Below are positions 24,035 through 39,797 of a DNA stretch of 59,936 nucleotides, piece after piece. The DNA comes from Candidatus Rokuibacteriota bacterium (GTDB lineage: Bacteria > Methylomirabilota > Methylomirabilia > Rokubacteriales > CSP1-6). Within the stretch, counting starts at the first letter, position 1; the number at the start of each line of letters is the position of its first letter. The position numbers and the translations under genes are program-made. The stretch is from the NCBI GenBank assembly GCA_016866775.1, contig VGLJ01000027.1:1-59936 (forward strand), written 5' to 3'. The notes below the pieces were generated by a model. That model ran no database searches. It was not told the DNA's origin and saw nothing but the letters and a program-made list of their open reading frames with translations.

Positions 24035-25317
24035 CAGGCGCTGTGGGAGAGCACCTGCTCGAGGTGGACGATCCGCTCGAAGGCGTCGCCGAGATCGTCC
24101 TGGCTCAGGCCGCGCTGGGTCGCGCCCCGCAGCACCGCCGAGAGCTTCTCGAGCTCGGCACGCGCCCCGGCGACGTCTTCCACCACGAGCTGCTGGATCG
24201 CGGGCCACCGCGCCTCGACGAGCCCCCCGAGCGCCCGGATGAGCGCGCTCCGCGTCTCGGTGAGGCGGTCCTCGTCGACACCGCCCAGGCGGATCGCGCG
24301 GAAGAGCGGCGCGAGCGCGCCGTCGAAGTTCTCGAGCTCCACGCGCCGCAGCCCGACCTTGGTGTAGCCCCACCAGAGCCGCCGCTCGAACTCCTCGCGC
24401 CGCTCGTCCGCCACCGCGCCGTCCGGCAGCGCGCCCGCGAGCTGTTCCGCGCGCTCCAGCGCTTCGAGCGCTTCGCCGTCGCGTCCGTCCTGGACGCTGC
24501 GGATCGCCTGCGCGGTGAGCTGCCCGATCTCGGCGCTCGACGCCGCGGCGAGCTCCTCGCACGCGGCGGTCAACGCGTCGCGCACGGCGTTCTGGGCGCT
24601 CGTGAGGTCCGGATCGCCGGGCACCACGGCAAGCGCTTCTTCGAGCGCGGCCGCGCACCCGCGCAGCTCGCGCACGCGCGCGCCGTCTGCGTCCGCGTCA
24701 TCCGGACCGGGCGGATTCGCCACCACTTCCTCGACCGCGCCGACGAGGTGCTGCACGTAGCCCGCGCGTGCGAGCGGCTCGGCGTCGAGCACGGCCGCGC
24801 GGAACGCGTCACGCGCGCCCTCGCGGTCGCCGAGCTCCCGCTTGGAGAGACCGACGAGGTCGAGCAGCGCCGCCGCTTCGTGCGGGCGATCGGAGACCGC
24901 CGCGAGCCGCGCGTGCACTTCGAGCGCGGCGGAGCCCAGCGACACCACTTCGGCGAAGCGGCCGTCCTTGTACATCGCGAGACACGTGTCGACGGGCAAT
25001 ACTCGTGGCCGCGGCGTCTCGGGCTCCGCGCCAGCGATCGGCGGGCGTGGCGGGATCTCCGGGATCGGCGCCGGCGTTGCGTCGCTCGCGGTTTCCACCG
25101 CTCGCTCCACCTCGATCGCCGGCTCCGCCGGCTCGATCTCGGCGACCGCGGTCGCCGACGCGCTCGTCAGGGGCTCCACGCGCGCGACGGGCAGCGGGCG
25201 GGCGCGACGCGCCGGTCGGCGGGGCGCCGAGGGCCACGCGAGCTCGGCGACGCCCAGGGCGAGGAGCCCGGATGCGCCGAGGGTCGCCAGGAGGATGAGC
25301 GCCTCTTCCGTCAACAT
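24034..25317 (-). CDS. membrane-anchored helical-repeat protein of unknown function
   Basis: 427 residues. An N-terminal membrane helix (ALILLATLGASGLLALGVAEL) is followed by about 80 residues rich in Pro, Ala and Glu, then an all-alpha region from about residue 108 to the end with TPR-like helices (MYKDGRFAEVVSLGSAALEVH, GDREGARDAFRAAVLDAE, DGRDGEALEALERAEQLAG, ENFDGALAPLFRAIRLG). I do not recognise a named family. Such proteins usually act as scaffolds. It is divergent from the thiolase gene, with 97 bp between. Confidence 0.6.
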   Translation of the reverse strand: MLTEEALILLATLGASGLLALGVAELAWPSAPRRPARRARPLPVARVEPLTSASATAVAEIEPAEPAIEVERAVETASDATPAPIPEIPPRPPIAGAEPETPRPRVLPVDTCLAMYKDGRFAEVVSLGSAALEVHARLAAVSDRPHEAAALLDLVGLSKRELGDREGARDAFRAAVLDAEPLARAGYVQHLVGAVEEVVANPPGPDDADADGARVRELRGCAAALEEALAVVPGDPDLTSAQNAVRDALTAACEELAAASSAEIGQLTAQAIRSVQDGRDGEALEALERAEQLAGALPDGAVADERREEFERRLWWGYTKVGLRRVELENFDGALAPLFRAIRLGGVDEDRLTETRSALIRALGGLVEARWPAIQQLVVEDVAGARAELEKLSAVLRGATQRGLSQDDLGDAFERIVHLEQVLSHSA

Positions 25318-25414
25318 GCCTCCATTGAAACCGCAGATGCCCGGAGAACCAAGGAAATCGCGCCTAGCCGCAGCGCGTCAGCGTCTTGCTATGATGGCGC
25401 GCGGGAGGATCCCC

Positions 25415-26569
25415 ATGCGTAGAGTCGCCGTCATCGGCGTCGGCGTCACGAAGTTCGGCAAGCACGATCGCACCTCGGGCGAGCTCTTCGCGGAGGCGGC
25501 CGTCGACGCGCTGGCCGACGCGGAGCTCCCGCCGGGCGCGGTGCAGGCCCTCTATTACGGCAACGTCGTCGGCGGGGAAACGGAGCACCAGCTCCACACC
25601 GGGCCGCAGGCGGCCTCGATCCTCGGCATTCCGACCGTCCCCACGACGCGCTTCGAGACCGCGTGCGCGAGCTCCCACGCCGCGTTCCGCCACGCCGTGA
25701 TGGAGATCGCCGCCGGCGTCTCCGACGTGGTGCTGGTCGGCGGCGGCGAGCGCGTGCTCAACGTGCCGACCGCGGAGTCCACCGAGTACTTCGCGTACGC
25801 GTCCGACGCGAGTTGGGAGCAGCCGCTCGGCCTCACCTTCCCCGGCGTGTTCGCGCTCGTCGCGCGCGCGCACATGGCGAAGTACGGCACGACCGAGGAG
25901 CAGATGGCGGCGGTCGCCGTGAAGAACCACAAGCACGGCACGATGAACCCGAAGGCGCAGTTCCAGAAGGAGATTACGCTCGAGACGGTGATGAAGAGCC
26001 CGTACGTCGCCGACCCGTTGAAGCTCTACGACTGCTGCCCCTTCACCGACGGCGGCGCGGCGATCGTGCTCGCCTCCGAGGACGTCGCGCGCCCGCGACG
26101 GCGCGCCGTGTGGGTGCTCGGCACCGCCGCGGCGTCGGATTCGATGCTGCTCGGCGACAAGAAGGATCTCTCGCGCGTGATGGCGACCGAGCGCGCGGCG
26201 AAGGCCGCCTATCAGCAGGCCGGCAAGAGCCCGTCGGACGTCAACGTCGTGGAGCTGCACGACTGCTTCACGATCGCGGAGATCGTCGCCACCGAAGGGC
26301 TCGGCCTCTTCGAGCCCGGCGCGGGCGGCATCGCGGCCGAGCGCGGCGACACGAGCCTCGGCGGCAAGGTGCCGGTGAATCCATCCGGCGGGCTGAAGTC
26401 CAAGGGCCATCCGATCGGCGCGACGGGCGCGGCGCAGATCGCCGAGATCGTCACGCAGCTCCGCGGCGAGGCCGGACCGCGCCAGGTCGACGGCGCGCGC
26501 ACCGGCCTCACGCACACGCTCGGCGGCAACACCGCGACCGTGCTCGTGAGCCTGTTCGGCCGTGAGTGA
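25415..26569 (+). CDS. thiolase-fold acyl-CoA acetyltransferase
   Basis: 384 residues from ATG 25415, preceded by GGGAGGA. It is a SCP-x/lipid-transfer type thiolase: the active Cys lies in ETACASSHAAFRHAV (near residue 85), with HDCFTIAEI and NPSGGLKSKGHPIGATG towards the C terminus carrying the catalytic His. It overlaps the next gene, a DUF35 protein, by 8 nt; such pairs form complexes that cleave or condense acyl-CoAs, for example in sterol side-chain or fatty-acid metabolism. The substrate is unknown. Confidence 0.92.
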   Translation: MRRVAVIGVGVTKFGKHDRTSGELFAEAAVDALADAELPPGAVQALYYGNVVGGETEHQLHTGPQAASILGIPTVPTTRFETACASSHAAFRHAVMEIAAGVSDVVLVGGGERVLNVPTAESTEYFAYASDASWEQPLGLTFPGVFALVARAHMAKYGTTEEQMAAVAVKNHKHGTMNPKAQFQKEITLETVMKSPYVADPLKLYDCCPFTDGGAAIVLASEDVARPRRRAVWVLGTAAASDSMLLGDKKDLSRVMATERAAKAAYQQAGKSPSDVNVVELHDCFTIAEIVATEGLGLFEPGAGGIAAERGDTSLGGKVPVNPSGGLKSKGHPIGATGAAQIAEIVTQLRGEAGPRQVDGARTGLTHTLGGNTATVLVSLFGRE

Positions 26570-26939
26570 GCCCGTGGTGACGCTGAAGAGCTTCTTCGAG
26601 CAGGCGCGCGAGGGCCGCCTCACCGGCATCAAGTGCGGCGGCTGCGGCGAGATCGCGATTCCGCCCAAGCAGTTCTGCGCGAATTGCGGCGCGCGCGCGT
26701 GGCAGAGCGTGCCGCTCTCCGGCGAGGGCACGCTCGCGAGCTACACCATCATCCGCGTCGCGCCCGCGGGTCACGCCGCCGACGCGCCGTACGCCGTCGG
26801 TGTCGTGAAGCTCAAGGAAGGTGCCGCGATCTTCGGCCGCATCGTCGACGTCCCGTTCGAGAAGCTCGCGGTCGGCCTGGCGCTCCGCTTCCGCCCCATC
26901 GTCGTGAAGGAGCAGACCTCGGTCGGCTTCGCTCCCTGA
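26562..26939 (+). CDS. DUF35 OB-fold / zinc-ribbon partner of the thiolase
   Basis: 125 residues from GTG 26562. The N-terminal rubredoxin-like zinc ribbon has CGGCGEI and CANCGARAW (two CxxC pairs), followed by an OB fold (GEGTLASYTIIRVAP). Known DUF35 proteins bind acyl-CoA and stabilise thiolase-like enzymes. Translational overlap with the upstream thiolase supports a two-protein complex. Confidence 0.92.
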   Translation: MSEPVVTLKSFFEQAREGRLTGIKCGGCGEIAIPPKQFCANCGARAWQSVPLSGEGTLASYTIIRVAPAGHAADAPYAVGVVKLKEGAAIFGRIVDVPFEKLAVGLALRFRPIVVKEQTSVGFAP

Positions 26940-26990
26940 CCCGCACGAGCGCCGGCTCCGCCGGCGCAATCCTGTTCTGGGGGGGAGCAT

Positions 26991-27017
26991 TGAGGGGGGC
27001 CGTCGAGGCCCCCCTCA
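26991..27017 (-). terminator. 11-bp hairpin directly after the tRNA-Gly 3' half
   Basis: Perfect 11-bp stem with a 5-nt loop and a G6/C6 core, starting 4 bp beyond the CCA end of the tRNA-Gly 3' half (minus strand). A run of seven G on the plus strand lies at 26979-26985, the same arrangement as the hairpins near 1.57 and 3.17 kb. Probably the original terminator of the tRNA-Gly gene. Confidence 0.65.
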
Positions 27018-27021
27018 AAAG

Positions 27022-27068
27022 TGGAGCGGCCGACCGGATTCGAACCGGCGACGTCCAGCTTGGGAAGC
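27022..27068 (-). pseudogene. 3' half of a split tRNA-Gly(CCC), including CCA
   Basis: Read on the minus strand this gives the anticodon loop TTCCCAA, the 3' anticodon stem, a variable loop, a T arm with the TTCGAAT loop, acceptor strand CGGCCGC, discriminator T and CCA. The sequence before the loop (GTGCAC) does not form a tRNA 5' half. Its acceptor strand pairs perfectly with the 5' half at 36607-36645. Joined at the shared 11-bp core (27058-27068 and 36607-36617) the halves make one 75-nt tRNA-Gly(CCC). Not functional where it stands. Confidence 0.85.
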
Positions 27069-27147
27069 GTGCACGCGCCGTTTTGGGGCTCATGTCCCCG
27101 CATTTCGCGGGTCGTTCACCCCGAGACGACTCGCCGCATGATCCGTA

Positions 27148-27461
27148 GTGACGGCCCGTGGCGACGAGACCGTCGACGAACTGCAGCACAGGTTTCGCCA
27201 CGGCGCGCTCGAGCTCGCCGAGGAGGCCGCGAGACGCGCCCCCCGGCGTGCCGGCTGGGAGCCGAGCGACCTCGACTTCATTGCCACGACGACGTGCACC
27301 GGGCGCCTCACGCCGAGCGTGGATGCGCACCGTGTCGAGCGGCTCACGTGTCGACCGGCGGTCCAGCGCGTCCACGTCGGCGATACCGGCTGGGCGAATG
27401 GGGAGTCATGATCGGCCTCGGCCCGGGGTTCGCGGCGGAAGGCGCGCTTCTGCGGGGCTGA
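27148..27461 (+). pseudogene. type III polyketide synthase (chalcone-synthase family) remnant
   Basis: The first part, ALELAEEAARRAPRRAG then WEPSDLDFIATTTCTGR and VQRVHVGDTG, matches the N-terminal thiolase-like region leading to the active-site loop. The loop (expected GDTGCA) turns into GDTGWANGES and stops. In another frame the next bases encode GVMIGLGPGFAAEGALLRG, the family's last strand, ending at 27461. So roughly 200 middle residues, including the Cys-His-Asn triad, are gone, as are the first 60 or so. An in-frame TGA just upstream of GTG 27148 blocks any longer start. Non-functional remnant at the island edge. Confidence 0.8.
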
Positions 27462-27623
27462 GCATATATCCCTGCCGACCGGCCGCGGGTGTGGCGCAGG
27501 AGACCTGCGGCGCAACCTCTCCCGGGGGAACGGTGAGCCGGGATCGGCCTTTGCCGCGGGCCTCCCGCCATCGACACAAACCCCCGAGCCCAGCAGTCCA
27601 TTCCCGCGAGCGGCCGGGCATCG

Positions 27624-28370
27624 CTACGCCGCCTCCGGCGGACGATGGATCAGCGGACGCATCCGGCTCATCAGCTTCTCCATGCCGTACATCACGAGGC
27701 CCATCTCCCGGCGGAAGTCCGCCGTGGCCTTCGTGCCGCCGCGGCCCACCGCCCCGTCGAACTCTGCCGCTCCGTGAATGAGTGGCACGATGAGGTTCTC
27801 GCGCTCGTCGAGCGTCACCGACGTCCGGTGGGTCTCCTCCAGGCGCAACAGCTCCTCGAGCTTCGCGCGAAGCAGGCGGGCCTGACCCGCCCAGAGCGCG
27901 CGAAACGCCACGATCCCTGCGCTGTTCACGATGTGGATCGAATTCGGCCGCGCGCCGTACGCACGATGCATCGTGCCGTCGAGCGTGTCGACGGCCACCG
28001 CCCACGGAATGTGATCGAGGCGCGCCCAATCATTCGCGTGCCGCATCTTCTGCGCCTCGCTCGTGTGGTGCGGATACCGCTCCCCGGGATGCGCCTCGCG
28101 CACGTGGACCGAGACGAACACCACGCGCTCGCTGAACTCGCGGTGGAGCTGCTTGAGGCCCGGCCGGGCCCCGCGCGTCATCGGTCACGTGATCGAGCCG
28201 ACCTCGATGAGGACCGGCCGGCCGCGGTGTGCGCTCAGGCAAAAGCGGCCGCCATCGATGGTCGGCAAGTCGAAGTCCGGCGCGGGCTCTCCCGGCTTCG
28301 GACCGCCGCCGAAGTGCATGTCCTCCTTCATCATGTGTCTGCGGAAGGTGTCGTAGTTGTACCCATCCAT
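27624..28370 (-). CDS. deiodinase-like thioredoxin-fold selenoprotein (Sec at in-frame TGA 28187-28185)
   Basis: 248 residues if TGA is read as selenocysteine. Start ATG 28370 has GGAGGAG 6 nt upstream. Residues 26-61 are a redoxin start (KPGEPAPDFDLPTIDG...VLIEVGSIT), then U62, PM, and the same frame runs on for 186 codons. The motif GSIT-U-P corresponds to GSCT-U-P of iodothyronine deiodinases. Further matches follow: VSVHVREAHPGE (deiodinase I-EEAHPSDG region) and VDTLDGTMHRAYGARPNSIHIV (VDTM...AYGA...LYVI region). A SECIS-like hairpin follows the TGA. A peroxiredoxin-like or dehalogenating redox role is possible; the substrate is unknown. An ordinary annotation would split it into two short genes. 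The Sec machinery is not in this window. Confidence 0.88.
28155..28172 (-). promoter_or_regulatory. putative bacterial SECIS hairpin
   Basis: Immediately downstream of the in-frame TGA the mRNA can form a 7-bp stem (GGGGCCC with GGGCCUC, one G-U pair) closed by the tetraloop GGCC. The loop begins with G and lies 19 nt after the UGA, inside the 16-37 nt range known for bacterial SECIS elements that bind SelB. The high G+C content makes hairpins common here, so spacing and position carry most of the weight. Confidence 0.6.
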
Positions 28371-28481
28371 GGCTGGCTCCTCCATCAGCACCGGTCATGA
28401 CGATGCCGAATGCATGCCACCTGGTCGAGGATCGGCCTCGACATCTGCGGGAATATTGGAGCCGTGTCTCGGGTTGGCGAC

Positions 28482-29586
28482 ATGACTCATGACGACACGA
28501 TGACCGCCGCGACGCTCGTCACGGGCGCCACCGGGTTCATCGGCCGGCACATCGTGCGCCGCCTCATCGCGGATGGGGCACCCGTGATTGCGTTGGCGCG
28601 CGCACGGAACGGTTCGACCGCCGCGGCGCGCGTGGCCGCGGCGGTCGGGCCCGCGGTCGGCCAGGTCGAGGTGGTGGAGGGCGATCTCGCGCTCCCTGGG
28701 CTCGGCCTGTCTCCGGCAACGCTCGCGCGCCTGCGTCATGACGTCGCGCGTGTCGTCCACTGTGGTGGCGACACGACCTTCGCGCCGCACGCCGTCGACG
28801 CGTTCAAGGCGACGCTCGTCGACGGGCCACTCGAGCTCCTGCGCATGCTCGCTGGCGATCGACTTCGTCGCTGGATCCACATCTCCACGGCGTTCGTGTG
28901 CGGCGCTCGTCACGGTCTCGTGCGTGAAGACGACGGCGACGTCGGCCAGCGCTTCCGCAATACCTATGAGCGGATGAAGCTCGCGTCCGAAGCGGTGCTG
29001 CGGGCCGCGGCGCAAGGAATGGATATCGACCTCCGCATCGTGCGGCCGAGCGTCGTCGTCGGCGCCGGCGCAGCGACACCCGGCGCGCATCCGTCGACCG
29101 TGTTGTTCGGCCTGATCCGAATGACGGCGGCCCTGGCAGGCGCGGCCCTCGCCGCGCCTGCGAGTACGGATCCCCGTCCCACCACACATCCGCTTCAACT
29201 TCATTCCGATCGAGGATGTCGTCCGTGTCGTCGCGGTCCTCGCCGAACACGACGCCGCCGCTGGTGGGACGTTCCACGTGGTGATCCGGAATCCGCCAAC
29301 GCATGAAGAGCTGCGTCGCCTGGCGTGCAGATACTTCGGAGTCTCGGGGATCGAGCTGGTGGACGCGGGCACGCTCGTCGATCCCTCGCCCCTCGAGCGG
29401 GAAGTTGCGTCGTTGCTCGCCCCCTACCGCGACTATCTCGACCACGATGTCGTGTTCGATGACGTGCACCTCCGCCGCGTGCTCACCGTGGCCGGCGAAC
29501 CGGCGCCGTCGCTCGATGACGGCGTGATCCAGTGCCTGATCGCGCACGCCCTCGGGCCCCGACGTGCACGGCGAACCGCCTCGTGA
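28482..29586 (+). pseudogene. NAD-dependent epimerase / acyl-CoA-reductase-like SDR, frameshifted
   Basis: Extended short-chain dehydrogenase. It has the Rossmann motif LVTGATGFIGRHIV, VVHCGGDTTFA, WIHISTAFVCG and the catalytic YERMK. The frame is lost between about 29140 and 29170; the continuation in another frame (IRFNFIPIEDVVRVVAV, then GGTFHVVIRNPPTHEELRR) runs to the stop at 29586. The fold and C-terminal part resemble NAD_binding_4 / thioester-reductase proteins. One indel separates the parts, so it is either a recent pseudogene or an assembly error. Divergent from the selenoprotein gene, 111 bp apart. Confidence 0.75.
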
Positions 29587-30445
29587 TCATTCCCGGTCTG
29601 GACTTGCTTGGTCGCCGCTCCTCGTCGTGCTGCTCGCGCTCTGGGCAGGCGTCGAGGCGGCATTCCCGCTCCGCCGACGCGTGCAGACGCGCGCACGACG
29701 GTGGCGCATCAATGCCGCCATCGCGGCGACGGCGAGCATGGTGATCCGTGGCGTGCAGATCCCTGTCGCCCTGGCGGTGGCGGCCGCCGTCAGCGCGGCG
29801 GGCGTCGGACTCATCGGCTGGATCGGCATCCCCGGGCTTGCGGCCGGCGTTCTGGGCTTCGTCCTCCTCGACTACACGACGTACGTGTGGCATCGCCTCA
29901 ATCATCGCGTCCCGTTCCTCTGGCGGTTCCATCGTGTGCATCACACCGATCTCGACCTCGACGTCACGACCGCCTTCCGCTTCCACTTCGGGGAGCTCGC
30001 GCTCTCGGTGGCGTACCGCGCGGCGCAGGTCGCGATCATCGACGCCGCACCGGTCGCGCTCCTGACGTACGAGATCGTCATGAACGCGGCGACAGAATTT
30101 CATCACAGCAACACAAAGTTGCCGCTCCGCTGGGAACGCCTTCTCAACCTCGCCCTCGTGACCCCGCGCATGCATGGGATCCACCATTCGATCGTCGAGC
30201 GCGAGACGAACGCCAACTGGTCGGTGATCTTTTCGTGGTGGGACCGCCTGCATCGGACGCTGCGTCTCGACGTCCCGCAGGACGCTATCGCGATCGGGCT
30301 GCCCGCCTTCCGCCGCCCGCAGGAGCTGACGTTCCGGCGCTTGATGCTCATGCCGTTCGGTGGGCAGCGCCCCACGTGGCAACTGCCCGACGGCGAGACT
30401 CCCGACCGTTCCCTTCACACAGACCCCCGTCGTTTGGTGGCCTAG
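29564..30445 (+). CDS. sterol desaturase / fatty-acid hydroxylase family protein
   Basis: About 293 residues from GTG 29564, overlapping the previous gene by 23 nt. Several membrane helices surround the histidine clusters of the non-haem di-iron family: HRLNH (near 115), HRVHH (near 124), HHSN (near 181) and HGIHH (near 206). The enzyme would use O2 and electrons to hydroxylate or desaturate a lipid. The upstream reductase remnant suggests a lipid-modifying pair. Appears intact. Confidence 0.85.
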   Translation: MHGEPPRDHSRSGLAWSPLLVVLLALWAGVEAAFPLRRRVQTRARRWRINAAIAATASMVIRGVQIPVALAVAAAVSAAGVGLIGWIGIPGLAAGVLGFVLLDYTTYVWHRLNHRVPFLWRFHRVHHTDLDLDVTTAFRFHFGELALSVAYRAAQVAIIDAAPVALLTYEIVMNAATEFHHSNTKLPLRWERLLNLALVTPRMHGIHHSIVERETNANWSVIFSWWDRLHRTLRLDVPQDAIAIGLPAFRRPQELTFRRLMLMPFGGQRPTWQLPDGETPDRSLHTDPRRLVA

Positions 30446-30606
30446 CGATGCGGCGAGGCCTCACCGCTTTCGCCCTGCCCATCGGCTGATCCCGCAAACG
30501 TTTCGTCGCCTCATTGGATCTGCCGATTTGACTGTGGCGTGAATCCCTATAGTGTGCTGCGTCGTCGCAGCTCAACAGGTTGGACTCGGTTCGCTGAGGT
30601 GATCGA

Positions 30607-31470
30607 ATGCGCCACTCGCTGGTCGCCCTCATCACGCTGTTGCTCGCCGTTCTCGCTCCGCTTGCCGGAGCCGCCTACGTCCCGGACACCTTGAGGGTGT
30701 CCGCGATTCCCGACGAGAACCCGAACGAGTTGATGCGTATCTACACGCCGTTCGCCGAATACCTCGCGAACGAGCTCGGGATAAAGGTGCAATTCACCCC
30801 GGTGGTCGACTATGCCGCGACGGTCGAGGGCCTCGCCGCGCGGAAGCTCGACCTCGTGTGGTACGGCGGCTTCACCTCGGTGCAGGCCGTGCGGCGGACC
30901 GGCGGCGCCGCCCGTCGCCTCGTCCTGCGCCAGGAGGACGCGGAATTCAAGTCGGTGTTCATCAGCCGCCGCGATTCGGCGATCCGCAAGCTCGAGGACC
31001 TCAAGGGCAAGACGTTCGCCTTCGGCTCGGTGTCGTCGACCTCCGGGCATCTCATGCCGCGTTACTTCATGCTGCAGGCGAAGCTGGATCCCGGCCGCGA
31101 CCTCAAGCAGGTCGCGTTCTCCGGCGCGCACGACGCGACGGCGCTCTGGGTCGAGTCGGGCAAGGTGGATGCCGGCGCGCTCAACTTCCTCGTCTGGGAC
31201 AAGCTGGTCCAGCAAAAGAAGATCGACGCCGCGAAGGTCGACGTCTTCTACACGACGCCGCCGTACGCCGACTACTGCTGGACCGTGCGGAGTGACCTCG
31301 ACCGGGCCCTGCAGGACAAGCTGACCGCCGCGTTTCTGAAGCTCGACGCCACGAATCCCCAGCACAAACGACTGCTCGACCTGCATCGCACGACGAAGTA
31401 CATCCGCGCCAACGACGCGGACTGGAAGCCGATCGAGGACGCCGCCGTCTCGGCGGGGCTCCTGAAGTAA
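30607..31470 (+). CDS. PhnD-like ABC substrate-binding protein, selenate/phosphonate-type
   Basis: 287 residues with a signal peptide (LVALITLLLAVLAPLAGA). Body features are LRVSAIPDENPNEL, VQFTPVVDYAATVEGLAARKLDLVWYGGF, FKSVFISRRDS, KTFAFGSVSSTSGHLMPRYF and VAFSGAHDATALW. This is a PhnD-superfamily protein; as I recall it is closest to the family labelled putative selenate ABC transporter binding protein, found with selenium genes, rather than classical PhnD. The ligand may be selenate, phosphite or phosphonate. First gene of a four-gene transporter operon in the same island as a selenoprotein. Confidence 0.85.
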   Translation: MRHSLVALITLLLAVLAPLAGAAYVPDTLRVSAIPDENPNELMRIYTPFAEYLANELGIKVQFTPVVDYAATVEGLAARKLDLVWYGGFTSVQAVRRTGGAARRLVLRQEDAEFKSVFISRRDSAIRKLEDLKGKTFAFGSVSSTSGHLMPRYFMLQAKLDPGRDLKQVAFSGAHDATALWVESGKVDAGALNFLVWDKLVQQKKIDAAKVDVFYTTPPYADYCWTVRSDLDRALQDKLTAAFLKLDATNPQHKRLLDLHRTTKYIRANDADWKPIEDAAVSAGLLK

Positions 31471-31472
31471 CG

Positions 31473-32294
31473 GTGTACGCGCTCTCGGACGTCCGGAAGG
31501 TCTTCGGCAACGACGCGCCGGCCCTCGACGGCGTCTCACTGACGGTCGGGCGCGGCGAGCACGTCGCGTTCATCGGCCCGAGCGGGGCGGGCAAGACGAC
31601 GCTCTTCCGGCTCCTCAACCTGACGCTGCGGCCGACAGCCGGCGTCCTGCTCATCGACGGGGTCGACGTCGCGGCGCTGGACGGCGCGGGATTGCGACGC
31701 GCGCGCCGGCGCATCGGCACGATCTACCAGCAGCACAATCTCGTCGGTCGCCTGCGCGTCGTGCACAACGTTCTCGCCGGCAACCTCGGACGCTGGTCGC
31801 TGTCCACCGCGGTCGCGTCGCTCATGCGGCCGCGCGCCGCCGATGCCGCGCGAGCGCTCGAGCAGGTCGGCATCCCCGAGAAGCTGTGGGCGCGAACCGA
31901 CGAGCTCTCCGGGGGTCAGCAGCAGCGGGTCGCGATCGCGCGGGTGCTCCTTCAGGATCCTGACGTCATCCTCGCCGACGAACCCGTCTCGTCCGTGGAC
32001 CCGTCGCTCGCGCTCACGATCGTGACGCTCCTGCGCGATCTGTCCCACCAGTCCCGGAAGACGTTGCTCGTGAACCTCCACAGCGTCGAGCTGGCCCTCG
32101 GGTATTTCCCGCGCATCGTCGGCGTCCGCGAGGGGCGCATCGCCTTCGATCTCGCCCCCGACGAGGTCACGCCCGAGCTGCTCGGCGCGCTCTACGCCGG
32201 TCACTCGGATGCCACGCGTCAGCTCGACCGGATCCACGATGGCATCGGCTCCTACGGCACCGCCTGCCGCCCGCTTCCCGGCTTCTCCAAGTAG
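31473..32294 (+). CDS. PhnC-like ABC transporter ATPase
   Basis: 273 residues from GTG 31473, 2 bp after the binding protein. Walker A GPSGAGKTT, Q-loop IYQQHNLVGRLRV, signature LSGGQQQRVAIARVLL, Walker B VILADEPVSSVDP, and the H-loop His in VNLHSVELAL. It powers import of the oxyanion bound by the preceding protein. Its 3' end overlaps the permease start by about 56 nt. Confidence 0.94.
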   Translation: MYALSDVRKVFGNDAPALDGVSLTVGRGEHVAFIGPSGAGKTTLFRLLNLTLRPTAGVLLIDGVDVAALDGAGLRRARRRIGTIYQQHNLVGRLRVVHNVLAGNLGRWSLSTAVASLMRPRAADAARALEQVGIPEKLWARTDELSGGQQQRVAIARVLLQDPDVILADEPVSSVDPSLALTIVTLLRDLSHQSRKTLLVNLHSVELALGYFPRIVGVREGRIAFDLAPDEVTPELLGALYAGHSDATRQLDRIHDGIGSYGTACRPLPGFSK

Positions 32295-33105
32295 GGCGCC
32301 CTTCGGCCGGTTCCTCGCCGCCGCCTTCACGGTGGTGCTGGCGATTTCGCTGCGTGAAGCGGGCGTCGACCCGCGCCTGCTCGTGCAGAGCGACGCCGTC
32401 GGGAACGCTGCACGCTTCGTGCGCGGGATGTTCCCGCCCGCGCTCGGGGTGGACTTCCTGGGCCTCCTCGTGCGGCCGGTCATCGAGACGATCCAGATCT
32501 CGCTGATGGGCACCACGATCGCGGTCGTCATCGGCTTTCCGCTCGGGCTCCTGGCCACGGCATCATTGATGTGGCGCGGCGCCCTCCACGAGCGCACGCC
32601 GGTGGCGCGCCGCGCGCTGCTCGGCGGCGTCCCCTACGGCCTCGCCCGCGCGCTCCTCTCCGTGTTCCGCGCGATCCCGGAATACGTGTGGGCGTTCATG
32701 TTCGTGCGCGCCGTGGGGCTCGGACCGTTTCCGGCGGTCCTCGCGCTCGGCGTCGCCTACGGCGGCATGCTCGGGAAGGTCTATTCCGAGATCCTGGAGG
32801 GCGTGGACTCGCGCCCGATCGAGGCGCTGCGCGCCGCCGGCGCATCCCGCGCGGCGATCGTCCTGTACGGACTGGTCCCGTCGGCCCTTCCCCACCTCGT
32901 GTCGTACACGCTCTACCGCTGGGAGTGCGCGATCCGCGCCGCAGCGATCCTCGGGTTCGTGGGCGCCGGGGGCATCGGGCAGCAGCTCGCGCTGAGCATG
33001 CGGATGTTCCAGTTCGACGAGGTCCTAACCGAGCTCGCGGTACTGTTCGCGCTCGTCGCCGCCGTCGACTTCGTCAGTGGCCGCATCCGCGGCCGCCTCG
33101 TGTGA
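32239..33105 (+). CDS. PhnE-like ABC permease 1
   Basis: About 288 residues from ATG 32239 (ATG 32209 is also in frame). Six membrane helices; the EAA loop reads IEALRAAGASRAAIVLYGLVPSALP, and RAIPEYVWAFMFVR and ILGFVGAGGIGQQL are typical of phosphonate-type permeases. The stop overlaps the start of the second permease (TGATG). Confidence 0.92.
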   Translation: MASAPTAPPAARFPASPSRAPFGRFLAAAFTVVLAISLREAGVDPRLLVQSDAVGNAARFVRGMFPPALGVDFLGLLVRPVIETIQISLMGTTIAVVIGFPLGLLATASLMWRGALHERTPVARRALLGGVPYGLARALLSVFRAIPEYVWAFMFVRAVGLGPFPAVLALGVAYGGMLGKVYSEILEGVDSRPIEALRAAGASRAAIVLYGLVPSALPHLVSYTLYRWECAIRAAAILGFVGAGGIGQQLALSMRMFQFDEVLTELAVLFALVAAVDFVSGRIRGRLV

Positions 33106-33953
33106 TGAGCGACACGCGGGCGACCGCCGGTGTCGGAGGAGCGCACTGGGCGTGGTGGACCGTCGCCGGCTTCGCCGCGTTGGTCGCGTGGTCCGCACAC
33201 GGCACTCGCGTGGACGTCGGGGCGCTCCTCGGCGCCGAAGGCCTAGGACAGATGACTGCGTATGTCGCGGGACTGTTCCCACCCGACGTGTCGCCGCCGA
33301 CGCTGCGCGACGCGGCACTCGGGGCGTTCGAGACCTTTGCGATCTCGTTCGTCGGATCGGTGCTGGCCGTGGGGCTCGGGTTCTCGCTCGCGCTGGTCGC
33401 GAGCCGCACCGTGCTCTACCGTGGAATTCTCTACGCGGGCGAGCGGCTCGCTCCGGCCGGGCGCGCGGGTCGAATCGGCATCTACGCGCTGGCCCGCGGC
33501 AGCCTCAACGCGCTGCGGACGATCCCCGAGATCTTGTGGGCGCTGATCTTCGTGTTCATCGTGGGTCTGGGACCGTTTGCGGGCGTGCTCGCCCTCGGCG
33601 TCCACACGGCGGGCGTCCTCGGCAAGCTCTTCGCCGAGGTCATCGAGGACATCGATCCGCGCCCGATCGAAGCCCTGCAGGCGACGGGCGCAAGCCGCCT
33701 TGCGATCATCGTCTACGGCATTCTTCCGCAGGCGGCGCCGCAGTTCCTGTCGTATGCGCTCTACCGCTGGGAGGTGAACATCCGTGCCGCGGCGGTGATG
33801 GGCTTCGTCGGCGCCGGCGGGCTCGGGCAGCGAATCCACGTGGCCATCAGTCTCTTCCACGAGCATCAGCTGCTGACCCTGCTGCTCGCCATCTATGTAA
33901 TCGTGACGGTTGTGGACGCGCTCAGCGCGTATCTGCGTGCGCGGCTGTTGTGA
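33105..33953 (+). CDS. PhnE-like ABC permease 2
   Basis: 282 residues from ATG 33105. The EAA loop IEALQATGASRLAIIVYGILPQAAPQF and VMGFVGAGGLGQRIHVA mirror permease 1, so the transporter is a heterodimer. The first 100 residues differ from permease 1 and contain one extra helix region. Last gene of the operon; no clear terminator before the convergent VKOR-like gene. Confidence 0.92.
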   Translation: MSDTRATAGVGGAHWAWWTVAGFAALVAWSAHGTRVDVGALLGAEGLGQMTAYVAGLFPPDVSPPTLRDAALGAFETFAISFVGSVLAVGLGFSLALVASRTVLYRGILYAGERLAPAGRAGRIGIYALARGSLNALRTIPEILWALIFVFIVGLGPFAGVLALGVHTAGVLGKLFAEVIEDIDPRPIEALQATGASRLAIIVYGILPQAAPQFLSYALYRWEVNIRAAAVMGFVGAGGLGQRIHVAISLFHEHQLLTLLLAIYVIVTVVDALSAYLRARLL

Positions 33954-34535
33954 GCGCGATCCGCCGCTCGCGTGTCTGGCGGAACGTCGTGCGCCGAGCG
34001 GCGCCCGGACCCCGACGGCGCCTGCGGACCCGTTCCGACGACGGCGCAGCAACGACCGAGCAGCTGACACGGCATTCGGGAGCGCGAGCGGAATCATCGC
34101 GAAGTGCGCCGCCGCGCCGACGAGACAGCACGGACACGCGCGCGCCTGACGCCGCGCCATGTCGTAGAGGTAGTTTAGGGCGCCGCCGACGCCGGCGGCG
34201 ACGGCGCCGCCGAGGAGCAGATCGAAGATCGGCCGGCGTCCGCTGCGCTCGCCTCCTCCCGCTCCCGCGAGGACGATCGTGAGGCCGTAGAGCACGAGCC
34301 CGACCGGTCCGTCGGGCACGCCCAGCGCGTACGCCTTGCGCGAGGCGTTCACCTTGTCGGAGTCGAAGATGCGGCCCGGGGGATCGGGCAGGTGCCGGAT
34401 CGCTCCCAGCTGATACAGCGAGATGATCGCGAAGTCGATCGCGCCGACCGCGGCGAGGATCACGATGCCGCGCCGGCGGCGCAGCGCGTCGGACTCGCCA
34501 TGACGGAGCTCGTTGCGAATGGCGTCGGGATCCAT
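33954..34535 (-). CDS. vitamin K epoxide reductase (VKOR)-like membrane protein, 3' end unresolved
   Basis: Start ATG 34535 with AGGAGA 8 nt upstream. Membrane helices (GIVILAAVGAIDFAIISLYQL, VGLVLYGLTIVLAG, LLLGGAVAAGVGG) surround the family pattern LGAIRHLPDPPGRIFDSDKVNASRKAYALG-like, and CPCC fills the place of the redox CxxC near residue 143. Homology ends near 34035; the frame has no stop until 33243, running antisense to permease 2, so the 3' end was probably lost. I cut the feature at the permease stop. VKOR proteins move electrons to thioredoxin-like proteins, so a link to the redox selenoprotein is conceivable. Confidence 0.6.
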
Positions 34536-34567
34536 GACTGGTTCTCCTGTCCCGTGTGTCGGCATGG

Positions 34568-35780
34568 TCAGCGGCCGGGGAGAAGACTGGCGAAGAGATT
34601 GGCGAGCCGCTCGCCGACCGAGGCTGTCAGCGACCACGGGCTCGGCTGGCGCACGACGTGGAGCCGGCCGCGCTGGTCGGTGATGCGGTAGTCCGTCGCG
34701 CCGCTCGCGGTTCGAAAGAAACGCAACGTCACCGCGGCGTCACCGACGCGGAGGTTCTCGAGCGTGATCTCCGGCAGCCACTCAGATGCGGGTCGACGAT
34801 CAGCAGGCGCAGGGGCGCGTATGGATAGAGGCCGAGCAGCGATTGCAGCAAGCAGAAGATGGCCGAGGCCGACCATGCCTGCGGCGCATTGGCCTGCGGA
34901 TAGAGCGCGGGGAACGGATGGGCGCGGTCGCGCGGGTGGCCGCTGAAGACCTCCGGCAGACGATAGAAGTCGAAGAGCGTCGCCGCCTCGAACTGCGCGC
35001 GCGCGATGAGCGCGACGTGGTCCCAGAGGCCATACCGCATGCAGCCGAGCGCGAATGTGCCGTGCTCGACGGGCCACACCGACCCGCGGTGGTAGCTGTA
35101 CGGGTTATACGCCGGGTGCTCGGCCGACAGTGTCCGGATCCCCCAGCCGGAGAAGAGATCGGGTTGGATCAGGCGATCAGCGGTCGCGGCCGCCAGTGCC
35201 ATGTCGGCGATCCCGGTCGCGAGGCAGTGGCCTGGATTCGACGTGATCGAGCGGATCGGGTGCTTCTCCGCGTCGAGGCCGAGCGCGAAGAATCCTCATC
35301 GAAGCCGATGGCGTCCTCGGCAAAGCACGGTTCGGTATCGGATCGCGCGACGCGCACGCGGACGGCGCGGGTGATGCGTGCGATCCCACGATTGTCCTGC
35401 ACGTCGTAGCGATGCGCCGCCTCGTAGCGGAGCGCGAGCTCGAATCCATCGTCGGTCTGCCGCCATGTCCGCTCGAGCTGTCCCGATTGCTGCCGTCCTC
35501 GCCTGACCTCCTCGAAGTCCGCGAAGTCGCCGTCGACCTCGACGGCGAAGCGGAACGCCGTCGGCTGCTGCGAGTAGTTCGTCAGGTCGAGGTCCTCGCG
35601 GACACCTTCGCCGACGTAGCGGGACACGCGGAGCTCGAGGGTCTGCTGCGACGCAGCGTCGACCTGGCCGCTGCCCGTATCCTCCTCGACCGCGACGCCG
35701 GGAGGCACGGTGATGGAGTAGCCGAGCCATGTGTGCTGAGCCGCGTTGCAGGCGACGACCGTCGGATTCAGCGTCGGCAC
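34568..35780 (-). pseudogene. glycogen-debranching-like amylo-alpha-1,6-glucosidase, internally deleted and frameshifted
   Basis: The 5' part (35780 to about 35297) is the N-terminal beta domain (GVREDLDLTNYSQQPTAFRFAVEVDG). It then joins the C-terminal catalytic part in another frame: FFALGLDAEKHPIRS, then PDLFSGWGIRTLS, HPAYNPYSYHRGSVWP and QAWSASAIFCLLQSLLGL. Near 34783 a second shift leads to WLPEITLENLRVGDAAVTLRFFR and the stop at 34568. Several hundred middle residues are missing. The rest matches the GDE_N_bis/MGH1-like glucosidase family. Dead gene. Confidence 0.8.
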
Positions 35781-35781
35781 C

Positions 35782-35949
35782 GTGAGCGATGTCGTCGCCG
35801 ACGTGCGTCGATTCGCGGACGCGGGCGTTCGCCATCTCCTCCTGCGCTTCGCGTCGGCTGATCAGGACGTGGCCATTCGTCGGTGGGCGCCGCTCCTCCG
35901 CGAGGCGCTGGCGGCGGAACTGACGTCACGTCCGCTGCGCGAGGGATGA
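35782..35949 (+). pseudogene. C-terminal fragment of an LLM-class oxidoreductase
   Basis: Some 55 residues (SDVVADVRRFADAGVRHLLLRFASADQDV, then WAPLLREAL) match the last helices of luciferase-like monooxygenases. Upstream the frame runs into the opposite-strand debranching remnant, so the first 250 or more residues are lost. Another trace that this part of the island has been shortened. Confidence 0.65.
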
Positions 35950-36418
35950 AGCGGGCGCACGATGTTTGACCCCCACCAAGATGACAGCCCGGCGCCGGCC
36001 ACGCACGACGGAGGGGCCTCCGCTCCGCCGCACCCGCGAAGGTAGACGGCGGGATGTGTCACAGCCGAGCGTGGCTTCGTGCGGCGAGAAGCGAGGCTCA
36101 TCACCAATAGCGCAGTGAGCCGATTGCACGATGGCGACGCGGCGGCTCGGCAGGCATGATGCGCGCACCGATGACGATGATTCTGGCGCGAGGCGAGCGA
36201 TCAGAGCGCAATGCAGCGGAGTGGCGACCGGGGAGCGGTCTGACCGCCCGTGCCGCCAGAGGATACTCTCCCTCCGGGACGGCATGACGCGATTGACCGA
36301 TCACGGATAGCGCCGCCTTGACGCTCTGCCTTCTCCTCGCCATTCTCGTCCCGTCCTTCGGCGCGCCTTCGACAACGCCGCGACCTGTGGTCTGTAAGAG
36401 ATGACAGGCAGTGAACGA
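35950..36418. other. gene-free stretch of about 470 bp
   Basis: I see no convincing reading frame, RNA gene or repeat here. The short open frames lack family-like sequence and ribosome-binding sites, and codon bias is weaker than in neighbouring genes. It may be eroded sequence at the island end. Confidence 0.5.
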
Positions 36419-36454
36419 AGGGGCCTACGGGGTGGTGATGCCCCGCAGACCCCT
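36419..36454 (-). terminator. hairpin after the intact tRNA-Gly(CCC)
   Basis: Imperfect stem (AGGGG and CUGCGGGG-type arms, two mismatches, 8-nt loop) starting 6 bp beyond the CCA end of the tRNA on the minus strand. Its position matches the hairpin after the split tRNA's 3' half, supporting a terminator role. Confidence 0.5.
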
Positions 36455-36459
36455 CGAAG

Positions 36460-36534
36460 TGGAGCGGGCGACGGGATTCGGACCCGCGACCCTCGGCTTG
36501 GGAAGCCGATGCTCTACCACTGAGCTACGCCCGC
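36460..36534 (-). tRNA. tRNA-Gly(CCC), intact, CCA encoded
   Basis: 75 nt on the minus strand: acceptor GCGGGCG/CGCCCGC, D arm GCTC-AGTGGTA-GAGC, anticodon stem TCGGC/GCCGA with loop TTCCCAA (anticodon CCC), T stem with loop TCCGAAT, discriminator T, CCA. All stems pair, allowing one G-T in the T stem. It reads GGG codons. It lies just inside the island, 73 bp from the 5' half of the split tRNA-Gly, and likely replaces it. Confidence 0.95.
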
Positions 36535-36571
36535 CCGTGACGGCAGAAGCGGCAGAATTGGCGCCCGTCGT

Positions 36572-36600
36572 CTTATAGTCCCGCGCGATGCTACTGCCAG
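36572..36600 (-). promoter_or_regulatory. promoter of the intact tRNA-Gly
   Basis: On the minus strand CTGGCA (36600-36595) and TATAAG (36577-36572) are 17 bp apart; the -10 box matches five of six consensus bases. Transcription would start about 30 nt before the mature tRNA. The promoter lies between the split 5' half and the intact tRNA, i.e. within the island. Confidence 0.6.
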
Positions 36601-36606
36601 CCTACG

Positions 36607-36645
36607 GCTTGGGAAGCCGGCATTCTGCCACTGAATTACGGCCGC
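36607..36645 (-). pseudogene. 5' half of a split tRNA-Gly(CCC)
   Basis: Minus strand: acceptor strand GCGGCCG, TA, D arm ATTC-AGTGGCA-GAAT, anticodon 5' stem CCGGC and loop TTCCCAA; after GC the sequence leaves the tRNA pattern (CGTAGG..., no T arm). The acceptor strand does not match the neighbouring intact tRNA but pairs perfectly with the 3' half at 27022-27068, and the anticodon stem does too (CCGGC/GCTGG, one G-T). So it is one end of a gene interrupted by the island. Confidence 0.85.
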
Positions 36646-36694
36646 TCGATGTCTCCTATCTTACGCGCTCCGGCCACGTGGCCGGTGGCCGGCG

Positions 36695-38239
36695 CTACTT
36701 CGCGTCCTTGAGCGACATGTCGAAACCCTTCAACCGCTCGTCAGGGCGCGCCTTCCAACCGACACGCTTGTTGACGCCATAGAGATCGACCTGCTGGTAG
36801 AGCGGCACCGCGGGCATTTCCTCGATCCAGAGCTTGTTGATCCGATGGTACTGCTCGAGGCGCTTCTTCTCGTCCATGATCGATTGCGCCTCGTCGAACA
36901 TCTTGTTGAAGTCCTCGTGATGCCAGTTCACGAAGATCCCCGGAGACTTGAACAACGGACCGTAGACCGTCTCGGCATCGATCGTCGGCGTGCCCCAACC
37001 GATGAGCCACACGGGACCCGCCTTGTGCACGTAGACCATGTTGTTCAGGTAGTTCACGAACTCGTACGTCTTCACGGTGGTGCGGATGCCGGCCTTGTTG
37101 AGCTGCCCGGTCACCGCTTCCGCGACTTCCTTGTCGCGCACGTACCGGCCTTGCGGCCCGTGCAGCGTGATCTCGATACCACCGGAGTGCCCGGCGTCCG
37201 CGAGCAGCTTCTTGGCCCTCGCGACGTCCTGCTTGATCGGCTGGAGCTTGGGGTCGTAGCCGAAGTGCATCGACGTCAGCATCGTGGCAACGCGCACACC
37301 CTTGCCGTCGAGCACGGTCTTGATGATCTCATCCGCGTCGATCGCGTACGCGATGGCTTGGCGCACCCGCTTGTCGGCGGTGGGGCCGTTGTAGAGCCCG
37401 GTCGGCTTGTGATCCTTGTCCATCTGATGCGCGTAGTACATCAGCTGGATCGTGCGGATGCTCGGCGTGGTCGACAGGAAGATCTTCGGGTGCTTGGCGA
37501 TGATGTCCGCCAGGTGAGGCGGGATGTTGACCGCCACGTCGATCTCCCCGTTCTGCAACGCCGCCACGCGCACGGCGTCGTCGGGAATCGGGCGGAACAC
37601 GACGGTCTTGATCTTCGGCGCGCCGCGGAAGTACCCGCCGTTCGCCTCCAGGACGATCTCCTCGTCCTTCGACCACCGCACGAACTTGTAGGGACCGGTG
37701 CCGATCGGATTCTTCGTGATGAACGCGGTGTCCTTGTCGGCGTACGCCTTCGGCGGATACATCGACGCCTGATTGAACGTCATCACGACGGTGAACGTCG
37801 GCCACGGCTTCTTCGTGTGCACGCGCACCGTGTGCGGGTCCGCGATCTCGACGCGGTCGATGGGCGCGAAGAACGTCGCGCCGCGCAGCTTGCCCTGCCC
37901 CTGCGCAAGCCGCTCGAGGCTGAACTTCACCGACGTCGCATCGAAGTCCTCTCCGTTCTGGAACTTGACACCCTTCCGGAGCTTCACCTCCCACGTCGTG
38001 GGCGCGACGAGCCGCGGCATGTCGACGGCCAGGAGCGGCACAACCTTCATGTTGGGATCGCGCTCGTAGAGGGTGTCCCAGATGTTGCCGCCCACGTTCG
38101 AGGCCGGCGTCTCGGACTGGTTCATCATGTCGAGCGTCGACGGGTCGACGCCCTGGGCGATCACGGCTTTGCCCGCCGGCGCGGCCGATGCCGCGACCGG
38201 CGCCGCCAGGGCGAGCACCAGCACCAGGATGATCCTCAT
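36695..38239 (-). CDS. ABC transporter peptide/opine-type substrate-binding protein (family 5)
   Basis: About 514 residues from ATG 38239 (GGAGGAGG 9 nt upstream), with a signal peptide (LVLVLALAAPVAASAA). Family 5 (DppA/OppA) features: YERDPNMKVVPLLA, WEVKLRKGVKFQNGEDFDATSVKFSLER, NPIGTGPYKFVRW, and VRQAIAYAIDADEI. A periplasmic ligand carrier for peptides or similar compounds; no permease or ATPase genes are next to it. The first chromosomal gene beyond the split tRNA. Confidence 0.93.
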   Translation of the reverse strand: MRIILVLVLALAAPVAASAAPAGKAVIAQGVDPSTLDMMNQSETPASNVGGNIWDTLYERDPNMKVVPLLAVDMPRLVAPTTWEVKLRKGVKFQNGEDFDATSVKFSLERLAQGQGKLRGATFFAPIDRVEIADPHTVRVHTKKPWPTFTVVMTFNQASMYPPKAYADKDTAFITKNPIGTGPYKFVRWSKDEEIVLEANGGYFRGAPKIKTVVFRPIPDDAVRVAALQNGEIDVAVNIPPHLADIIAKHPKIFLSTTPSIRTIQLMYYAHQMDKDHKPTGLYNGPTADKRVRQAIAYAIDADEIIKTVLDGKGVRVATMLTSMHFGYDPKLQPIKQDVARAKKLLADAGHSGGIEITLHGPQGRYVRDKEVAEAVTGQLNKAGIRTTVKTYEFVNYLNNMVYVHKAGPVWLIGWGTPTIDAETVYGPLFKSPGIFVNWHHEDFNKMFDEAQSIMDEKKRLEQYHRINKLWIEEMPAVPLYQQVDLYGVNKRVGWKARPDERLKGFDMSLKDAK

Positions 38240-38309
38240 GTCGATAGCCTCCTCCGCGAGGGCGGTCTTTGCCGGTGAACGTCGAGCGAAGCGCTGTGGT
38301 TCCGATACT

Positions 38310-39797
38310 CTAGGGGCCGTCCTCGGATGAGTCAAGGTAACGGAGGGCTTCCTCGCGCGTGGCGACGAGTCCGAGCGCCTGCGCCTCGCGCGCTCGCGTC
38401 AGCAGGGCCCCCACGGCGGGACCTGGCGGCAGCGCGAAGCGTGTCATGACATCCTCGCCGCGCAGGAGCGGCGGCGCCGCGCGGGCATCCTGCTGCTCCT
38501 GCCAGCCGGCCATCAGCTCGCGCACCACCCAGCCGCGCTTCCAGGCGACGAACGGCGAGATCCCGGTGACCGCGGCGGCGTCGGCGGTGACGAGCAGCAG
38601 CAGGTCGCGGCTGTCGTCGGCGAGGTCGCGGAAGAACCGATAGCGCGCGCGGGAAGTGATCTCGCCCGATTGCGCGAGATGCATCGGACGCAGGTGGTGG
38701 CGCACGAGCCGCTCGACGCTCGCGACCGCGCGCCCCGGAAGCCGCAGGCGCTCGCCGATCGCCCGCGCGCGCGCGGCGCCTCGCAGGTCGTGCTCGAAGA
38801 ACCGCACGCGGCCGTCGACGAGCCGGCGCGTCTCCGGCTTCGAGACGTCGTGGAGCAGCGTCGCGAGCCGGAGGAGCTGCGCGCGATCGACGCCGCCGCC
38901 GACTTCTTCCGCGAGGTGGGCGCGCAAGTCGTCGGCGATCGCGCCGAGCTTCGTCAGCCCGGTCACGAGCCGGTCCGCGCCGTCCACCGCGCGCAGCGAG
39001 TGCTCGAGGACGTCGAACCGGTGCGGCCGCGGCTGCGCCGTGCGTCGCATCGCTTCGATGTCGGGAACGAGCGCGCCGAGGAGACCGAGCGCGTCGAGAC
39101 GGCGCAGCGCCCTCCCCGCGCGTGGGAGCCCGAGCAGGAGCAGCAGCTCATCGCGCTGCCGCTCCGCCGACACGCGCGTGAGCCCCGGCGCGGCAACCCG
39201 CACCGCGCGCGTGGCGGCGGCGGTCAGCCGGAACCCGAGGGTCGCTTCGAGACGCACGCCGCGGAGCGCGCGCAGCGGATCGTCGGCGAGGGCGGTCGGA
39301 CCGGCCGGCCGCAAGCGCGCGGCGGCGAGGTCGGCGAGGCCGCCGGTGGGATCGATGACGGGCGCGCCGCCATCGCGGAGCAGCGTGCGCAGCGGTACCG
39401 CGAGCGCGTTGACGGTGAAATCGCGCGCCGCGAGATCCTCTTCGAGGGTCGGCGCGCGCCAGTCGGTGACGTCGAGGCGCCCGGCACCGGCGATGACGCG
39501 CGCGGCGCCGCGCTCTTCGTCGAGCACGAGATAGGCGGCGCTCAGGCGATCCGCAACGCGCCGCGCGACGTCGATCGCCCCGCGCGGCACGGTCACGTCG
39601 ACGTCCACGGCCGGGCGCGTCGAAGGCTGCGTCGCCGGCGGCGAATCGCGAGTCCCTCGTCGCGGGGGCGTGAGGCAGGCGTCCCGCACGGCCCCGCCGA
39701 CGAGCACCGCGTCGCGTCCCGCGCCCGCGGCCACGACCGCCCGCAGCAGCGGCAGCGCGCGCGGGTCGAGCGCCGTCAGCGCAAGCCGCTTCGACAT
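38310..39797 (-). CDS. CCA tRNA nucleotidyltransferase / poly(A) polymerase family protein
   Basis: 495 residues. Class II nucleotidyltransferase head with VLVGGAVRD (residues 32-40) and the DVDVT metal motif; between them lies a low-complexity 25-residue insertion rich in Thr, Pro and Arg. Further conserved parts are EEDLAARDFTVNALA, DDPLRALRGVRLEA, and an HD domain (TLLHDVSKPETRR, HHLRPMHLAQ). It repairs tRNA CCA ends or adds poly(A); the HD domain suggests a CCA enzyme with phosphatase activity. Likely essential and intact. Confidence 0.9.
   Translation of the reverse strand: MSKRLALTALDPRALPLLRAVVAAGAGRDAVLVGGAVRDACLTPPRRGTRDSPPATQPSTRPAVDVDVTVPRGAIDVARRVADRLSAAYLVLDEERGAARVIAGAGRLDVTDWRAPTLEEDLAARDFTVNALAVPLRTLLRDGGAPVIDPTGGLADLAAARLRPAGPTALADDPLRALRGVRLEATLGFRLTAAATRAVRVAAPGLTRVSAERQRDELLLLLGLPRAGRALRRLDALGLLGALVPDIEAMRRTAQPRPHRFDVLEHSLRAVDGADRLVTGLTKLGAIADDLRAHLAEEVGGGVDRAQLLRLATLLHDVSKPETRRLVDGRVRFFEHDLRGAARARAIGERLRLPGRAVASVERLVRHHLRPMHLAQSGEITSRARYRFFRDLADDSRDLLLLVTADAAAVTGISPFVAWKRGWVVRELMAGWQEQQDARAAPPLLRGEDVMTRFALPPGPAVGALLTRAREAQALGLVATREEALRYLDSSEDGP

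Follow-up and report, generated by a model that had tools for sequence, protein, structure and literature searches.

The split tRNA-Gly(CCC) gene and its surroundings

The window, that is, the whole stretch of 59,936 bp that was analyzed, belongs to the metagenome-assembled genome of a soil bacterium of the Rokubacteriales, in the candidate phylum Rokubacteria (159 contigs, 97.5% complete). The relatives named below are metagenome assemblies as well. The native tRNA-Gly(CCC) gene is cut in the anticodon loop and its halves lie 9.5 kb apart, with the following features at and around them.

24842..26939, plus strand: left flank, thiolase and OB_ChsH2 genes (Pfam), which adjoin the intact native tRNA in two relatives (G018, G072)
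26988..27021, minus strand: native hairpin/terminator following the 3' half (folding z −5.8)
27022..27068, minus strand: displaced 3' half of the native tRNA-Gly(CCC) (46/46 identical over 27022–27067)
27058–27068: attR core, 11 bp (GCTTCCCAAGC), within the native 3' half
27069..36617: inserted element, 9,549 bp including one copy of the core, delimited by the two cores and by flank synteny with G018 and G072
28410..34282, plus strand: cargo, with an NAD-dependent epimerase/reductase and a phosphonate-type ABC transporter (binding protein, ATPase, and permeases; Pfam)
36420..36459, minus strand: hairpin/terminator of the replacement tRNA (−31.2 kcal/mol, z −6.5), kept in G033 and G001
36460..36534, minus strand: intact replacement tRNA-Gly(CCC) (ARAGORN; Rfam tRNA, 71.7 bits), the one tRNA called in the window
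36541..36557, minus strand: two direct repeats TTCTGCCG, 9 bp apart, with the same motif pair in the attL of G033
36572..36600, minus strand: CTGGCA-N17-TATAAG, the promoter proposed in an earlier note on this DNA
36607–36617: attL core, 11 bp (GCTTCCCAAGC), at the end of the native 5' half
36607..36645, minus strand: native tRNA-Gly(CCC), 5' half, which differs from the gene of the family at one position (37/38 identical)
36658..36663, minus strand: −10-like box TAAGAT of the host tRNA, upstream of the 5' half, for which native loci have similar hexamers at roughly this distance
36695..38335, minus strand: right flank, SBP_bac_5 extracellular solute-binding protein, with a CCA-adding enzyme further right (Pfam, synteny)

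The native 5' half immediately follows the SBP_bac_5 gene, which is its place in the relatives of the family too, where the order is CCA-adding enzyme, solute-binding protein, and tRNA-Gly(CCC). Beyond one intact native tRNA, both G018 and G072 continue with the OB_ChsH2 and thiolase genes; the site is empty in these two relatives. Within the family, the native tRNA shows little or no variation, and its D-arm and anticodon stem are common to relatives in other families of the class. Both features mark it as an inherited gene, passed on vertically within the class.

The acceptor stem of the 3' half complements that of the 5' half. The core comprises the anticodon loop and two base pairs of the stem on each side, and its presence at both ends is the pattern that insertion by a tyrosine integrase would leave. 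No functional tRNA is rebuilt at either junction, where ARAGORN finds only the replacement tRNA. The target gene is not restored by an att fragment, as T-arm and acceptor sequences are absent after the attL core of the window. The earlier note had correctly recognized a broken tRNA-Gly(CCC) beside an intact one, without mentioning at that point the native 3' half at 27022–27067. With this half mapped, what was described as a break becomes a defined insertion of 9,549 bp.

A profile search with PF00589 gave no integrase match on the contig of the window (C27), and no integrase was found among the element ORFs by Pfam or tblastn. None of ten element ORFs matched a PHROG, and no transfer genes were seen among the element ORFs scanned, while both cores are present. 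The replacement-tRNA cassette was not found in viral contigs; phage and plasmid records displayed general tRNA-Gly similarity only (60–90%). Since no integrase was found in it, the element looks like an integrase-less remnant, or like an element mobilized from elsewhere. A group I intron in the anticodon loop was also considered, and is ruled out by the duplicated 11-bp core, the whole tRNA in the insert, and the lack of an Rfam intron match. Near the attL end, at 34568–35835, a short ORF with similarity to glycoside hydrolases (MGH1/GDE_C-like) lies amid broken frames, which suggests decaying cargo.

The replacement tRNA

The intact tRNA-Gly(CCC) is situated 72 bp downstream of the native 5' half, on the same strand. 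Its presence just inside the island edge, with the same anticodon as the broken gene, had been pointed out in the earlier note and is borne out by ARAGORN and Rfam. It folds as a cloverleaf and retains U73, G1-C72, and C2-G71, which are glycine identity elements. It is 77% identical to the native tRNA, and the acceptor stems differ as previously remarked (GCGGGCG in the replacement and GCGGCCG in the native tRNA). Outside Rokubacteria, the closest sequences are tRNA-Gly(CCC) of one WOR-3 and one Armatimonadetes genome, with 92–93% identity. These comparisons place the replacement in a foreign lineage; with a native gene that is vertically inherited, they agree with the earlier view that the intact tRNA is no simple duplicate.

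The count of intact tRNA-Gly(CCC) genes in the genome is one, and this gene is the replacement inside the insertion. A degenerate CCC pattern search of the genome returned the replacement, the displaced half, and four further matches, none of which coincides with a tRNA call. The remaining glycine tRNAs are one UCC and one GCC.

The promoter that had been attributed to the intact tRNA is present as written. It fails a consensus scan and its −10 hexamer is not conserved in Rokubacteria AR_45 (G033), which is presented below. The window and AR_45 both keep an unbroken −10-like box of the host ahead of the 5' half, so that read-through from the host tRNA promoter, via the 5' half, into the replacement would be at least as likely as expression from a promoter of its own. 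The hairpin following the tRNA, also reported earlier, is confirmed by its folding score; it is devoid of a T-run. The pair of TTCTGCCG repeats just before the replacement tRNA is common to the spacers of the window and AR_45, and may represent arm-type integrase sites. Copies of TTCTGCC are found at attL and attR of the element in another family member (G023).

The same cassette in Rokubacteria AR_45

In AR_45 (VBPC01000014.1), the order is native 5' half, spacer, replacement tRNA, hairpin, and native 3' half. The replacement tRNA is identical to that of the window (75/75) and the spacer has diverged. The insert measures 1,043 bp, and its cargo has no match to that of the window. The PF00589 profile search and tblastn found no integrase in this 1-kb insert. 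Since neither this insert nor that of the window has a recognizable integrase or phage gene, the agent of insertion is deduced indirectly. The two halves of AR_45 have changed in concert at acceptor pair 6-67, where a compensatory change has turned C-G into G-C, which indicates that the native gene was still whole not long before the insertion. AR_45 holds a second, independent insertion of the same cassette at the same site.

Ordinary elements at the same attB

Orphan native 3' halves together with an intact native tRNA occur in eight genomes (G003, G012, G023, G025, G031, G061, G065, and G069). They mark elements that rebuild the native tRNA in the usual way. A tyrosine integrase (PF00589) adjoins the tRNA in four of them (G025, G061, G065, and G069); in G003 the integrase is at the end nearest to the tRNA, on the other side of a contig break, and in G023 a broken integrase is near the tRNA. 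Integrases beside a rebuilt tRNA indicate that, in the family of the window, a tyrosine integrase very probably acts at the anticodon loop of tRNA-Gly(CCC). In the genome of the window, the homologues of the G003 integrase are all distant (about 30% identity).

Several family members are without a detectable intact CCC tRNA, for some of which contig breaks are probably responsible. Native 3' halves were observed in G068 (L100:4084-4209) and G073 (L101:9902-9947), and neither a 5' half nor an intact CCC tRNA was detected in these two assemblies. In G068, a damaged second copy resembling the 3' half lies 35 bp beyond the first.

Origin of the arrangement

It is very likely that a tRNA-targeting integrative element, or an integrase-less remnant of one, split the native tRNA and supplied a replacement that took over the decoding of GGG codons. 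Recombination of the element or remnant would have taken place within the anticodon loop of the single tRNA-Gly(CCC) of the host, at the 11-bp core, with a tyrosine integrase as the presumed catalyst. With so short a shared core, the gene could not be reconstituted, and the native tRNA was left split. A complete tRNA-Gly(CCC) with its hairpin would thereby have been placed immediately within the attL end, in the orientation of the native gene and right behind the promoter of the host tRNA. This copy would substitute for the native tRNA in reading GGG, and would be expressed from the host promoter, from a weak promoter of its own, or from both. The proposal of the earlier note that the element supplies a replacement is thus well supported, as the sole intact CCC tRNA resides in the insertion and the cassette recurs in AR_45.

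The earlier note went further in presenting the element as addictive. Taken strictly, this would mean that the element is kept because a cell that lost it would die from the lack of tRNA-Gly(CCC). This stronger reading is considered unlikely. It draws on the replacement being the only CCC glycine tRNA in the genome, and on the frequency of GGG, which accounts for 54 of the 257 glycine codons (about 21%) in a sample of eight genes. However, if the two cores recombined precisely, the element would be lost and the native tRNA made whole again; only an imprecise loss would abolish CCC decoding. As precise excision restores the native gene, the element is better described as self-compensating than as strictly addictive. 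Moreover, tRNA-Gly(UCC) may read GGG by wobble and might make the CCC tRNA dispensable. The element would be indispensable only if the native halves decayed and the UCC tRNA could not cover GGG. Of the original interpretation, the replacement brought by the element is retained, addiction as stated is not, and the case for a private promoter is weak.

Two same-anticodon tRNA sequences 72 bp apart on one strand could also result from a tandem duplication followed by the decay of one copy, with no element involved. This is hardly credible and is regarded as refuted, since the 3' half is found unbroken at a distance of 9.5 kb, where it continues the 5' half in register and includes the core, since empty sites exist in G018 and G072, and since the two tRNAs, with 77% identity, are of different lineages. 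The tandem order of the two tRNAs in the absence of an island, which the earlier note named as a refutation, did not come to light; the tandem of AR_45 has a displaced 3' half too. An artificial junction produced by assembly or binning might be feared with a metagenome contig, but the same cassette and the same split are found, flush to the base, in the independent assembly of AR_45, which makes a chimera extremely improbable.

Alternatively, an ordinary element may have rebuilt the tRNA with its own 3' half, the hybrid having later decayed beside a tRNA that the element carried by chance. Ordinary elements do share the same attB, and the stretch after the core of AR_45 (TCCGGTCGCGTGAG) is faintly reminiscent of a T-arm. 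Yet the matching stretch of the window is without T-arm remnant, and the displaced halves are near-pristine in both cases, which leaves little time for the decay of a hybrid. This scenario is therefore quite improbable, and the direct supply of a replacement at a split gene remains the preferred reading.

A possible exchange of alleles

In two other genomes (G030 and G001), a tRNA-Gly(CCC) of the replacement type (93 and 92% identical, respectively) with a similar hairpin is found alone downstream of the solute-binding protein. This foreign-type tRNA is at the native distance from the host −10-like box, and no native half was found in either assembly. The native gene is kept in G074, which is of the same genus as G030. 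A tree of the solute-binding protein (about 260 residues), in which many forks are weak, does not group the four replacement-bearing genomes, and this fits repeated acquisition. It is tentatively proposed that such elements swap the tRNA allele of the host for good, and that G030 and G001 represent the end state, with the element gone and its tRNA now a host gene. Either this is the case, or the lineages of G030 and G001 are donors of the replacement tRNA. If the exchange is real, a foreign tRNA permanently becomes a host gene at the native locus.

At the same locus, G009 has another variant of tRNA-Gly(CCC) (L102:9911-9985; 88% identical to the native one) beside ordinary-looking genes. One genus holds the native (G074), replacement (G030), and G009 types.

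Comparison with known systems

Lysogeny that depends on a phage-borne tRNA was described by Guerrero-Bustamante and Hatfull (2024) for the mycobacteriophage Fionnbharth and its relatives, which have a tyrosine integrase and for which the requirement for the tRNA was shown by experiment (PMC10865867). Their system and the window have in common a short core (about 10 bp) that lies at the anticodon loop and has a conserved 5'-CTT, a single-copy host tRNA that is not rebuilt, and an element-borne cognate tRNA of matching isotype. Some relatives of Fionnbharth rebuild the tRNA at the same attB (PMC10865867), as the ordinary elements of Rokubacteria do. The window differs from the Fionnbharth system (PMC10865867) in that no phage genes or integrase were found, the cargo is for metabolism and transport, and the host is an uncultivated Rokubacterium. 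Of the features of tRNA-dependent lysogeny, an attB that overlaps a tRNA gene, a short core, the absence of a rebuilt tRNA, and a target that is the only gene of its isotype are found in the window; neither a tyrosine integrase nor a temperate phage was detected in it. For lack of the latter two features, the element is not called a member of this group, and may be said to work by analogy with it.

In the group of the Rhizobium phage vTRX32-1, a whole phage-borne tRNA is presumed to replace the interrupted one (PMC8631192). An earlier hint of the same came from Lj965 of Lactobacillus. Phage-related sequences of S. meliloti introduce tRNAs that resemble those of unrelated species (PMC11476347). 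The tRNA of the Rhizobium phage is without the integration motif, an absence that may prevent super-integration (PMC8631192), whereas the replacement tRNA of the window keeps the full 11-bp core and could be a target itself.

Canonical tRNA-targeted islands (Islander, PMC4383910) share with the window a crossover in the anticodon loop and, at the opposite end, a 3' fragment of the tRNA that has been displaced. They restore the gene with an att fragment, whereas the element of the window brings a whole gene. Cis-mobilizable elements (CIME, PMC5704250) are flanked by att sites and have lost their genes for integration and transfer; the element of the window, with its two cores and no integrase found in it, may resemble them in this. 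Their definition, in the portion of that source consulted, does not include a replacement tRNA, unlike the element of the window, which is a candidate for mobility only.

Integration with a replacement tRNA has been proven only for some temperate phages, and what is new here is that no phage genes were found in the element. Further new points are the host phylum, the sharing of one attB with elements that rebuild the tRNA, and a possible exchange of alleles. Guerrero-Bustamante and Hatfull raised the questions of how widespread tRNA-dependent integration may be beyond actinobacteriophages and of its relation to the rebuilding mode (PMC10865867); in the family of the window, which belongs to an uncultivated phylum, rebuilding and replacement are found side by side at one attB. 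Such elements could offer a concrete route for the horizontal replacement of a core gene of translation.

Other tRNA genes of the same genome

Matches to tyrosine integrases occur at C120:4559-5227, C10:1045-1831, and C101:10655-11384, at most about 250 bp from tRNA-Asn, tRNA-Leu(UAG), and tRNA-Glu(CUC), respectively, which suggests several tRNA-targeted elements in the genome of the window (G000). This genome also has two divergent tRNA-Ala(CGC), at C57:1807-1879 (L194) and C131:5056-5128 (L196). No split halves were found in the tRNA-Ala(CGC) loci examined. The copy on C57 adjoins a phage-type integrase (C57:1087-1629), and may for this reason be a second element-borne tRNA.
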